A stretch of 33,204 bases of DNA from Candidatus Magasanikiibacteriota bacterium (GTDB taxonomy: Bacteria; Patescibacteriota; Patescibacteriia; Magasanikbacterales; UBA922): contig JACPGR010000012.1 of assembly GCA_016182415.1 (NCBI GenBank), forward strand, positions 1-33,204, written 5' to 3'. The notes beneath the pieces were generated by a model. The model ran no database searches, was not told the DNA's origin, and was given only the letters and a program-made list of their open reading frames with translations. This document shows positions 34-31,932 of this stretch, piece by piece. The position numbers were made by a program, and so were the translations under genes. Within the stretch, counting starts at the first letter, position 1. Every line of letters starts with the position of its first letter.

Positions 34-109
34 GCCGTCATAGCTCAGTTGGTAGAGCGCATCCATGGTAAGGATGAGGTCTCCAGTTCAATCCTGGATG
101 ACGGCTCCA
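34..109 (+). tRNA. tRNA-Thr (anticodon GGT)
   Basis: A full cloverleaf is visible. Acceptor GCCGTCA pairs with TGACGGC, the D arm contains AGCTCAGTTGGTAGAGC, the anticodon stem CATCC/GGATG encloses loop ATGGTAA (anticodon GGT at 67-69), and the T arm is CCAG/CTGG around TTCAATC. The discriminator is T and the CCA tail is encoded (107-109). Its 3' part is repeated at 114-175, the pattern expected when an integrating element has used the gene as an attachment site. Confidence 0.95.
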
Positions 110-113
110 GTAA

Positions 114-175
114 GTCTCCAGTTTCAGCCCGCAGGCTGATCCGCCCGGTTGGAGGACAATCCTGGCTGACGGCTC
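114..175 (+). repeat. duplicated tRNA-Thr 3' end, interrupted by a 33-bp hairpin insert
   Basis: Bases 114-123 plus 157-175 repeat bases 79-107 of tRNA-Thr with a single mismatch (28 of 29). The copy is split in its T loop by a 33-base insert at 124-156, which is a copy of the small double-hairpin repeat. The duplicate is not a working tRNA. It looks like an attachment-site or tandem-duplication relic at the left edge of the accessory island. Confidence 0.7.
124..156 (+). repeat. small double-hairpin repeat (family 2), copy 1
   Basis: Two adjacent short hairpins: TCAGCC-cgca-GGCTGA, then TCCGCC-cggtt-GGAGGA. The same layout recurs at 13209-13239 (opposite strand), 14998-15029 and 17548-17577. 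Here the exact ends can be read, because the interrupted tRNA copy has an intact counterpart at 79-107. Confidence 0.7.
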
Positions 176-13208: not shown

Positions 13209-13239
13209 TCCGCCACAGGATGGATCAGCCTTGGGCTGA
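13209..13239 (-). repeat. small double-hairpin repeat (family 2), copy 2
   Basis: Read on the minus strand: TCAGCC-caa-GGCTGA, then TCCATCC-TGT-GGCGGA (one mismatch in the second stem). It lies in the 109-base gap between the phosphatidyltransferase and GT-C genes. That gap also holds a tandem pair of TTGCATGTAAAT-like units (13269-13292). Confidence 0.65.
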
Positions 13240-13300: not shown

Positions 13301-14971
13301 ATGAAACATTTTTTCCAAAATAAACAAAATCTAATACTCCTGATTTTTTCAGTAGTCTTTTTTTTCATCTACAATTTTTTAAATTTCTCAATTCCATATC
13401 AGTTTAATTCACCTGATGAAAATGCGAATTTTGTGTTTACAAAACAAGTCTCGGAGTATGGGTTGTTGCTTTATCCACTCGATTCGCTCAAATATGGAGA
13501 GCTAGTCGAATTCATTCATCCGCGAAGTGCATTTGTAGAAGAAGGAGTTGGATCGAGTATTTTGCCGGTTGGGTTTTGGGGATTACCGCTTGTCTATGGC
13601 ATGATAGGAAAAATTATTGGAGTGTTTGGGACCTTGCTTATTACGCCGCTGCTTGCAATTTGTGCGATCTGGGGATTTTATGGAATTTTGAAAAAAGTTT
13701 TTGATGAACAGATTGCATTTTTTTCTGCATTACTTTTATTTTTCCAACCGGTCTTGTGGTACTACACAACACGAAGCCTATTTCCAAATGTGCCATTTAT
13801 TTCTCTCATTTTGATTGGCGCATGGTTTTTGATATGCAAACCCATGTCGCGTGCATTGCTAAATGACGTAGTGGGGATGAGTATTTTTATGCTTGGAATT
13901 CTGATGCGTCCAAATGAAATAATGTGGGTAGCACTTTGTTTTGCAATTGTCGCGGTGTGGTATCGAGCAGAAATTTCGTTGAAAAGATTGCTCGGGTGGA
14001 TTGGTGTTGGATTATTTTTTGTTGTAGTATATGCATTCATCAATCACTCGCTTTATGGTAGCAGTGCCGGAAGCTATGTTAGCTCTCGGTCGGTCGAATT
14101 ACAAACTTGGTATGCATATATTTTTCCATTTGGCATTCATCCTCGGACAATCATCAAGTCACTTTGGTTTTTTATGTCAAAATTGACGTGGTGGTATGTG
14201 ATGCCTGCAAAAATTGGATTGTTGTTTTTTCTCTATGATTGGTACAGAAAAAAATTATCTCGAGCACAAAAAGTATCTGGTGCAGTGTTTGTGGTGATGA
14301 GTATGTTTTTGGTAACGTATTATGGAAGTCAGATTGATAATTTGTATAATCTCAAGACAATCGGTGTGGCATATACTCGATATTGGCTACCAATTTCGAT
14401 TGGGATGATTCCGTTTATCGTGTATGGATTTTTTAGAATTGCTGAATTGTTTGACCGCAACTCACCCCTCGCCCCTCTCTTACCGAAGAGAGGGGAAACT
14501 CACGGATCCGTGTCTCCCTTCTCTTCGGTACGAGAAGGGCGGGGGATGAGTTGCTTCATCGTCTATGGTTTTGGGTTAGTTTATCTTGTAGTAATGTTTA
14601 TTTTGAGTGTAAATTTGGTCTTTGGTGGTATGGATGGAATCACTGCAACACACAAAAATTTGCTACACACAGCAGAGGTTAAAAATTGGGTCTTGGCACA
14701 TACAGATGACGATGCTATACTAGTAACAGATTATGAAGATAAGTTTTTTTGGCCTGATAGGCAAGTGATGGTACGGTTTTTTGACCCACGAGTTGGTTCA
14801 GCAATAGCCGAGCTACTTGAAAAAAAACAGATAGACGTGTATTATTTTGGAATCAAATTGGAAGGGGAGAGTGAAGAAAAGGTAAAAGAATACATCGAGC
14901 AATTTAGATTGGAGATTGAGAGCGTTCAAAATTTTGATGAGCATGGGTTGTATCGGTTCATCACAAAATAA
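13301..14971 (+). CDS. GT-C-like membrane glycosyltransferase with an in-frame palindromic insert
   Basis: The 556-residue protein has about ten transmembrane helices. An early external loop carries NSPDENANF, the acidic pair expected of GT39/ArnT-like enzymes that move sugars from polyprenyl phosphate, so a glycan-modifying role at the outer membrane face is likely. Residues about 386-418 (NSPLAPLLPKRG to REGRGMSC) are coded by a complete copy of palindromic repeat family 1 (14456-14555). It sits in a loop between two helices and keeps the frame. The sequence FIVYGF occurs just before and just after the insert. Substrate is unknown. Confidence 0.7.
   Translation: MKHFFQNKQNLILLIFSVVFFFIYNFLNFSIPYQFNSPDENANFVFTKQVSEYGLLLYPLDSLKYGELVEFIHPRSAFVEEGVGSSILPVGFWGLPLVYGMIGKIIGVFGTLLITPLLAICAIWGFYGILKKVFDEQIAFFSALLLFFQPVLWYYTTRSLFPNVPFISLILIGAWFLICKPMSRALLNDVVGMSIFMLGILMRPNEIMWVALCFAIVAVWYRAEISLKRLLGWIGVGLFFVVVYAFINHSLYGSSAGSYVSSRSVELQTWYAYIFPFGIHPRTIIKSLWFFMSKLTWWYVMPAKIGLLFFLYDWYRKKLSRAQKVSGAVFVVMSMFLVTYYGSQIDNLYNLKTIGVAYTRYWLPISIGMIPFIVYGFFRIAELFDRNSPLAPLLPKRGETHGSVSPFSSVREGRGMSCFIVYGFGLVYLVVMFILSVNLVFGGMDGITATHKNLLHTAEVKNWVLAHTDDDAILVTDYEDKFFWPDRQVMVRFFDPRVGSAIAELLEKKQIDVYYFGIKLEGESEEKVKEYIEQFRLEIESVQNFDEHGLYRFITK
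14456..14555. repeat. palindromic repeat family 1, copy B, inside a coding region
   Basis: The ends CGCAACTCACCCC and GATGAGTTGC bracket the left hairpin CCCCTCTCTT-ACCG-AAGAGAGGGG and the right hairpin CCCTTCTCTT-CGGTA-CGAGAAGGG. It has no stop codon in the frame used by the host gene and does not shift it. Confidence 0.85.
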
Positions 14972-15099
14972 TCCGTTATAATCCGTTACAATCTGCTTCA
15001 GCCAAAGGACTGATCCGTCCTGTGGCGGATAATCTGCTGTTTGAAATCGTGATTGGAATAGCAGATTTTAATAGATTAAACGGATTAAAACAGATTAAT
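14970..15099. repeat. imperfect inverted repeat of AATCTG/AATCCG motifs
   Basis: The left arm (AATCCGTTATAATCCGTTAC, then AATCTGCT) is mirrored by the right arm ending AAACGGATTAAAACAGATT. The same type of sequence is found at 21679-21787. A family 2 double hairpin is lodged in the left half. It fills the gap between the GT-C and HIT genes. Confidence 0.6.
14998..15029 (+). repeat. small double-hairpin repeat (family 2), copy 3
   Basis: TCAGCC-aaa-GGACTGA is followed by TCCGTCC-TGT-GGCGGA. It is flanked on both sides by AATCTGCT (14990-14997 and 15031-15038), which could be a target duplication or part of the host repeat. Confidence 0.65.
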
Positions 15100-17547: not shown

Positions 17548-17577
17548 TCAGCCATAGGCTGACCAGCCTGTGGCTGG
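17548..17577 (+). repeat. small double-hairpin repeat (family 2), copy 4
   Basis: TCAGCC-ata-GGCTGA is followed by CCAGCC-TGT-GGCTGG. The second stem differs from other copies at paired positions (TCC/GGA becomes CCA/TGG), so base pairing is kept. Flanks are AGCAGAGTA and GGCAGATTA. Confidence 0.7.
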
Positions 17578-22640: not shown

Positions 22641-22644
22641 CTGA

Positions 22645-22744
22645 CGCAACTCACCCCTCGCCCCTCTCTTACCGAAGAGAGGGGAAACACACGATACCGT
22701 GTCTCCTTTCTCTTCGGTAAGAGAAAGGCGGGGATAGAGTTGCG
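22645..22744. repeat. palindromic repeat family 1, copy C
   Basis: A complete 100-bp copy: ends CGCAACTC and GAGTTGCG, left hairpin CCCCTCTCTT-ACCG-AAGAGAGGGG, a linker AAACACACGATACCGTGTCT, and right hairpin CCTTTCTCTT-CGGT-AAGAGAAAGG. It fills the gap between two GT2 genes. Confidence 0.9.
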
Positions 22745-22759
22745 TTCATATCACAACCT

Positions 22760-30945: not shown

Positions 30946-31104
30946 GTAACTACTCACCCTGCTTTATTCGTGAACGCAACTCTCCCCTCGCCCCTCTCTT
31001 ACGGAAGAGAGGGGAAACACACGTTCACCTGTCTCCTTTCTCTTCGGTAAGAGAAAGGCGGGGATAGAGTTGCGTTCACCAGACATAGGGTGGTGAGTAG
31101 TTAC
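30946..31104. mobile_element. 159-bp element with GTAACTACTCACC termini
   Basis: The ends GTAACTACTCACC (30946-30958) and GGTGAGTAGTTAC (31092-31104) are perfect inverted repeats, as in the element at 268-530. The left flank inside the end (TGCTTTATTCGTGAAC) is also shared. A complete family 1 palindrome is nested in it. Confidence 0.75.
30975..31074. repeat. palindromic repeat family 1, copy D (nested)
   Basis: Ends CGCAACTC and GAGTTGCG, left hairpin CCCCTCTCTT-ACGG-AAGAGAGGGG, right hairpin CCTTTCTCTT-CGGT-AAGAGAAAGG. It matches copy C almost base for base. The inverted flank extends to TGAACGCAACTC / GAGTTGCGTTCA (30971-31078). Confidence 0.9.
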
Positions 31105-31692: not shown

Positions 31693-31732
31693 ATTTTTAT
31701 GTTTGTGGTATACTGTTGGTGTTAAAAATAAA

Positions 31733-31850
31733 ATTGAGATACATTGAGATACATTGAGATACATTGAGATACATTGAGATACATTGAGATACATTGAGAT
31801 ACATTAGATACATTGAGATACATTGAGATACATTGAGATACATTGAGATA
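31733..31850 (+). repeat. 10-bp tandem repeat array, about 12 units of ATTGAGATAC
   Basis: Seven perfect units (31733-31802) are followed by one unit missing a G (31803-31811), three perfect units and one partial unit. Downstream, 31870-31916 holds several ATTATCTCAAC-like units on the opposite strand, so the array and this stretch could pair. It ends about 80 bases before the pyrG start. Confidence 0.95.
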
Positions 31851-31932
31851 GGGAGATATTAAGAGTAAAATTATCTCAACATTATCTCTATCTTATCTCA
31901 ACATTATCTCAACATATTAATTTAAATTTTGT

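Follow-up and report, generated by a model that had tools for sequence, protein, structure and literature searches.

A 33-nucleotide double hairpin in the T loop of a spare tRNA-Thr copy and its relatives as putative mobile mini-elements

The window analysed here is a 33,204-nt stretch that makes up an entire contig (C47) of a Candidatus Magasanikiibacteriota bacterium, whose own draft genome comprises 1.11 Mb in 99 contigs. Close to its start lies an intact tRNA-Thr gene, and 4 bases after that gene begins a partial second copy, in which a 33-nt insert separates GTCTCCAGTT from CAATCCTGG (Table 1). Alignment with the 3' end of the intact tRNA-Thr required a single 33-column gap and one substitution near the gap, and this alignment revealed no target duplication at the insert. 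The insert starts with T, whereas the next base of the target is C, and it ends with A, whereas the target has T just before the site; neither end can be slid, and the unit is therefore exactly TCAGCCCGCAGGCTGA followed by TCCGCCCGGTTGGAGGA. The insertion point follows the second base of the 7-base T loop (TT^CAATC, where the caret marks the junction). The insert folds into two adjacent hairpins (z = -2.4, with 4 of 200 shuffles equally good), is matched by model R1 at E 1.4e-4 in a search of the window, and has a 22-nt core that is unique in the window, where shuffles gave 0 expected occurrences. An earlier note on this DNA had described a clean 33-base insert with fixed ends in a T loop, free of target duplication and accompanied by an empty original at 79-107. 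All of its sequence points were correct: the ends are confirmed by the single gap and cannot be slid, the coordinates of the original fall within the intact gene, and both the absence of duplication and the use of hairpin loops as targets recur at many further sites.

Table 1. Element copies and associated tRNA features in the window
Feature	Position	Strand	Evidence
Intact tRNA-Thr(GGT), empty site	34..109	+	ARAGORN; Rfam RF00005 64.4 bits
Degenerate second tRNA-Thr copy, left part GTCTCCAGTT	114..123	+	Identical to intact tRNA in alignment
Element hairpin 1, TCAGCC-CGCA-GGCTGA, 6 bp perfect	124..139	+	Fold; model R1
Element hairpin 2, TCCGCC-CGGTT-GGAGGA, one mismatch	140..156	+	Fold; model R1
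Degenerate tRNA copy, right part CAATCCTGGCTGACGGCTC	157..175	+	18/19 identical to intact tRNA 3' end
Third element copy, 31 nt, within TTTGTAC...GTACAAA palindromic repeat	13209..13239	+	Model R1 27.3 bits, E 6e-6
Second element copy, 32 nt, within AATCCG.../AATCTGCTGTTT repeat	14998..15029	+	Model R1 49.9 bits
Weaker 30-nt double hairpin, TCAGCCATAGGCTGA + CCAGCCTGTGGCTGG	17548..17577	+	Model R1 15.5 bits, E 0.01

Pattern and covariance searches returned about 28 places in the organism's own genome that match the element; the surveys covered targeted stretches of genome. These copies are 30-33 nt long, apart from a few exceptions that carry an additional nested insert, and they end alike, with two complete hairpins and nothing extra. 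The earlier note had held that copies with different ends would refute its proposal, and this did not come about, as the copies share one type of end, two complete hairpins, at lengths of 30-36 nt. The repeat that hosts the second copy in the window is present in exact empty form on contig C60.

Several other structured sequences were observed in the window. At 301-349, a palindrome (CCTGCCTGCG...CGACAGGCATGG) has its tip occupied by a small hairpin (CGACTAAGCTCGTCG), again a hairpin in a hairpin, and a related sequence, CCTGCCTGCCGGACAGGCAGG, lies within the element copy at C87:3126-3178. At 405-469, two perfectly matching inverted arms of 22 bases (GTACAACACCCGTGAGGGTGTT) are separated by a 21-base spacer. 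A 105-base palindromic repeat (ACGCAACTC...CCCCTCGCCCC) is present in three copies (14455-14559, 22644-22748 and 30974-31078) and also occurs on contigs C80 and C71, and positions 31717-31910 consist of tandem 10-base TTGAGATACA units and then 11-base TTATCTCAACA units in the inverted orientation.

To look for empty sites, the sequences on either side of filled sites were fused, and the available DNA was searched for the fused sequence. For many filled sites an uninterrupted version was found, with no base gained or lost, and the filled/empty pairs amount to clean insertion of 30-33 nt at several loci, in agreement with the tRNA-Thr locus. Exact empty sites exist for TTGTACAATTT^GTAATTTGTAT and TTTAATCCGTT^TAATCTGCTGT, and exact or near-exact empty forms were identified in other phyla for CCTCCCCCTT^GAGGGGGGAGG, GGTCGTCT^TTAGACGACC and GGAAACCTT^CAGGTTTCC. 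On contig C80, a Y1 transposase gene is located between two copies of the palindrome GGCAATT^TATTGCC, of which the one upstream of the gene is empty, while the one downstream has 32 nt in its tip. Target duplication was absent from the filled/empty pairs, the tRNA-Thr locus included, and because of this absence a classical MITE of a DDE transposon was ruled out.

Judged by its sequence matches, the element is dispersed across several phyla. Among 84,980 species genomes scanned, 19 contained a total of 54 exact copies of TCAGYCNNNNGRCTGATCCGYCNNNNGRCGGA; the hosts belong to the Omnitrophota, the Planctomycetota (including Brocadiaceae), the Calditrichota and the Bacteroidota and, within the CPR, to Nomura-, Yanofsky-, Uhr- and other Parcubacteria. 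By our own calculation from pattern length and equal base frequencies, about 0.03 exact copies would be expected by chance. With two mismatches allowed, some genomes contained 22 to 38 copies, and reversed-pattern controls of the same search gave zero matches. Occurrence is patchy, with 4 of 379 same-phylum genomes matching at one mismatch or fewer; the model matched in 25 of 59 relatives, and no exact match to the element was found in viral contigs. It could be argued that the repeats are chance palindromes or an assembly artefact, since the own genome is a 99-contig draft, several copies on C82, C83 and C85 sit at contig ends or gaps, and draft assemblies may misplace repeats. However, the excess of exact copies over the chance expectation is drawn from independent assemblies, and together with the empty reversed-pattern controls it leaves such an explanation scarcely credible.

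Across 43 distinct 32-mers, 92% of the cells of the two-hairpin structure are paired, and its covariation (0.250) exceeds both the shuffled value (0.102) and that of slid controls (at most 0.098), with 40 cells changed on both sides. The outer stems vary independently between the hairpins (TCA/TGA, TCC/GGA, TTC/GAA and TGC/GCA). At the level of the alignment, compensatory change demonstrates conservation of the two hairpins and selection on the structure. One long hairpin in place of two gave 0.182 versus 0.142 shuffled and was rejected on this weaker covariation, although it may matter for the palindromic subtype. In this common 32-nt subtype, the inner core of hairpin 1 (GCCNNAGGAC) is the reverse complement of the core of hairpin 2; the subtype is nearly palindromic overall, which leaves one long hairpin possible as its active form.

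Copies of tRNA genes are a recurrent target. When 55 loci were taken from the model matches in listed order, with tRNA proximity disregarded, 11 lay within 100 bp of an intact tRNA, compared to 0.76 expected at an assumed density (our own assumption) of 45 tRNAs per Mb (binomial P ~2e-10). At most of these 11 loci, a partial tRNA copy harbours the element in one of its loops, either the D loop (GTAGTT^CAATGG, CAGTT^GGTTAG) or the T loop (GTT^CAA, GTTC^GA), and one further case has it in the anticodon loop (GTTTT^CAACC). More cases in the own genome involve tRNA-Arg (C68 and C71), tRNA-Pro (C82), tRNA-Ile (C78) and tRNA-Thr (C65), and tRNA-Asp on C38 has degenerate copies on both sides. Some tRNA-loop inserts are of unrelated sequence, such as TCTCCCGATTTAATCGGGAGA + CCAGCCTATGGCTGG, and still fold as two hairpins. 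Degenerate tRNA copies also exist without any insert, as indicated by the uninterrupted copies of tRNA-Gly on C58 and tRNA-Ile on C98. A group I or archaeal-type tRNA intron was rejected because the host copies are broken, being truncated or having mispaired arms, and usually have an intact gene beside them. The 3' ends of tRNA genes are classic attachment sites, and the interrupted fragment starts 4 bp past an intact tRNA; it is conceivable that the fragment is the attachment-site remnant of an integrated element, with the hairpins part of its end and no mini-element involved. This is made very improbable by the occurrence of inserts in three different tRNA loops (D, anticodon and T) and in 5' and 3' tRNA fragments alike, by identical units in palindromes unrelated to tRNA, and by the lack of an evident integrase-type ORF beside 114-175 (from inspection of the ORF list by eye, with no family search).

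Some tRNA loci have a more elaborate arrangement. The intact tRNA-Thr at C65:360-432 (L314) is enclosed by two mutually complementary arms, TTATCCCGATAG and CTATCGGGATAA. These arms resemble the anticodon stem of a degenerate tRNA-Thr that surrounds the intact one and has a double hairpin in its D loop, giving a tRNA inside a tRNA copy. The degenerate copies that flank tRNA-Asp at C38:5429-5502 (L300) have the anticodon arm replaced by CCCGACTGAGTCGGG or CCCGATTGAATCGGG and double hairpins in their loops. The D arm of tRNA-Pro at C82:358-442 (L315) contains an 11-base duplication (GGCTAGAGCAT), and a second tRNA-Pro copy at C82:23 has the element in its D loop. In the relative G011, a tRNA-Asp copy (L231) holds two different double hairpins, in the D arm and the T loop. 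An apparent tRNA-Arg(CCT) copy in the Omnitrophota genome G064 (L198), for which neither ARAGORN nor Rfam made a call, has hairpins in its D loop and, in its anticodon loop, a set of nested hairpins about 90 bases long.

The preference for loops was quantified over flank types rather than copies, because some host repeats have surely been copied with the insert inside. For 50 distinct flank types, the mean stem gain from flank pairing was -5.17, compared to -1.87 (sd 0.31) for mispaired flanks, and none of 300 shuffles was as low; a gain of -5 or less was reached by 22 of the 50 (44%) but by only 11% for mispaired flanks. The loop sequence before insertion is usually TT, and in the exact set T at -2 and A at +2 were each found in 22 of 32 flank types, the target logo being dyad-symmetric. 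REP-like palindromes are among the targets, the element nests in loops of other element copies (L098, L114, C38 and C78), and some AT-rich CPR sites have no flanking stem. Structured RNAs that have been entered include a c-di-AMP riboswitch, in its first hairpin loop, a class A RNase P RNA, in its P3 loop, and a second RNase P RNA, in another stem region. A c-di-GMP-I match in L092 merely abuts the element and was excluded from the target count. It is important to note that, in functional RNAs, the position of inserts in loops could partly reflect selection, because only loops tolerate inserts, although such selection should not act on repeats or on dead tRNA copies. Several host repeats were probably amplified after gaining the insert.

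The presence of structured RNA genes (tRNA, RNase P RNA, riboswitch) among the targets would also fit a route through RNA, in which loops of folded transcripts receive the insert and the product is reverse-transcribed and recombined next to the parent gene. Such a route would account for duplicated tRNAs next to intact parents as well, and is said to have been proposed for some of the small dispersed repeats (SDRs) of cyanobacteria. However, most targets are repeats that look untranscribed, and no RVT_1 match was found in 15 of 26 host genomes, including the near-complete G017, G031 and G054 and the copy-rich G062, G066 and G067, so that insertion through RNA appears quite improbable.

In our interpretation, to which we assign a probability of roughly 0.72, the 33-nt insert is a copy of a mobile mini-element that is dispersed, encodes no protein, measures 30-36 nt, consists of two adjacent hairpins and inserts into the apical loops of hairpins. 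The precise ends and the preference for tips are established by the comparisons above, while a folded single-stranded substrate is inferred; the evidence for movement is entirely comparative, and movement itself was not seen. This goes beyond the earlier note in recognising a family that crosses phyla, tRNA copies as recurrent targets, and the two-hairpin architecture, rather than one sequence, as the invariant. The element would move as a precisely bounded two-hairpin unit and would enter the apical loop of a hairpin, usually right after TT or TTC, with the target neither duplicated nor lost, converting the tip into a three-way junction. Folding brings the two terminal bases of the element together, so a free unit would be a nicked dumbbell. 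Substrate and target alike are inferred to be folded single strands, either replication-exposed DNA or a cruciform, and by this inference the T loop of the tRNA-Thr copy would have been single-stranded and folded when insertion happened. Joining may be accomplished by a trans-acting enzyme, as yet unidentified, or by host hairpin processing.

The most attractive candidate for the joining enzyme is a Y1 transposase. In this more specific form of the joining step, the element would be a REP/REPIN-like unit whose folded strand is nicked by a Y1 (HUH) transposase of the RAYT/IS200 kind, which would then join the double hairpin into a hairpin loop. Insertion into single strands without target duplication suits this enzyme class, and REP hairpins are strand-specific (PMC8266576); the own genome has seven Y1_Tnp matches, one of them in the gene at C80:1962-2306 between the empty and the filled palindrome, and the element resembles two inverted mini-REPs with the conserved core GCCNNAGGAC. 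Nevertheless, outside C80 no relaxed element match was detected within about 1.5 kb on each side of the Y1 loci surveyed (8 in relatives and 30 in host genomes), and Y1 matches are absent in host genomes G035, G059, G060, G072 and G075 and in the near-complete relatives G017, G031 and G054. The element also lacks a GTAG guide, and its logo, with T and A equally frequent at the two mirrored positions, is symmetric. Action by a Y1 enzyme thus remains possible, with considerable doubt.

Alternatively, host replication or repair may suffice, if tips are opened (e.g., by an SbcCD-type activity, for which there are no presence data) and small folded DNA is ligated in, or if a polymerase switches template at the tip. 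Tips are targeted whatever the host sequence, the target is symmetric and not duplicated, a shared enzyme was not found among the host genomes, and sequence-unrelated double hairpins occur at the same tRNA loops. However, the TT preference is strong, and the same 32-nt sequence recurs with exact ends across phyla, for which random repair of tips is insufficient without a dedicated donor; an origin by host processes alone is rather unlikely.

A wider view can be put forward tentatively, at somewhat under even odds: the class may be defined by architecture (two hairpins with meeting ends) and not by sequence, and its members may enter loops of folded single strands and fill several arms of one tRNA copy, so building nested cloverleaf-like structures beside the parent gene. 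The element is among the smallest candidate mobile elements known, its size is near the lower limit for mobility, and there is no established mechanism for elements so small. With fixed ends, empty sites and a structural target of oligonucleotide size, the mechanism is open to direct tests. Should the substrate be folded single strands, the inserts would mark hairpin formation in vivo and would represent a simple route to new stems in RNA genes, including those for RNase P, riboswitches and tRNA copies.

No description of this element came up in a search of the available papers, although this does not show that none exists. By analogy, its apparent behaviour resembles that of the cyanobacterial SDRs and of mitochondrial double-hairpin elements. 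The SDRs are reportedly 21-27 nt long. As described (SDR1-SDR8, Elhai et al. 2008, as cited in PMC3116915), they are, like the element, tiny, dispersed and structured, with compensatory changes, clean insertion, and nesting in other repeats and in themselves; the element meets these criteria as a tiny structured repeat with clean insertion and self-nesting. It differs from them in being longer (30-36 nt), in having two hairpins and in occurring in other phyla, and it targets hairpin tips and tRNA loops, whereas the reported SDR targets are heptamer arrays or HIP1.

The mitochondrial double-hairpin or repetitive hairpin-forming elements (RHE) of Allomyces, other fungi and sponges likewise consist of two adjacent hairpins and are dispersed and non-coding, and they also insert at variable positions of rRNA genes (PMC2800124). 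The corresponding criterion, two adjacent stem-loops as the mobile unit, is met here by covariation in both hairpins and by the folds. In contrast to those organellar elements, the element resides in bacterial chromosomes, and its preference for hairpin tips and tRNA loops has been quantified.

REP/REPIN elements with their RAYT (TnpA-REP) transposases (PMC3116915, PMC8266576) share with the element short palindromes, inverted doublets and a spread in trans, and the RAYT-like gene in the own genome that is flanked by an element-carrying palindrome is a further parallel. Unlike REPs, the element has equivalent strands, is not consistently associated with a Y1 gene, inserts within other REPs and lacks their GTAG (or CGTC) tag, with no GTAG at its exact ends; the GTAG that precedes some inserts is tRNA D arm sequence. 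Palindromic units are also targets of the insertion sequences IS1397, ISKpn1, IS621 and ISPsy8, which insert into REPs, ISPsy8 doing so at the symmetry axis with a 3-bp target duplication (PMC1525189). These are, unlike the element, full transposase-coding IS (PMC1525189), and the fact that they aim at REP centres indicates that the centres of palindromes can be recognised as targets.
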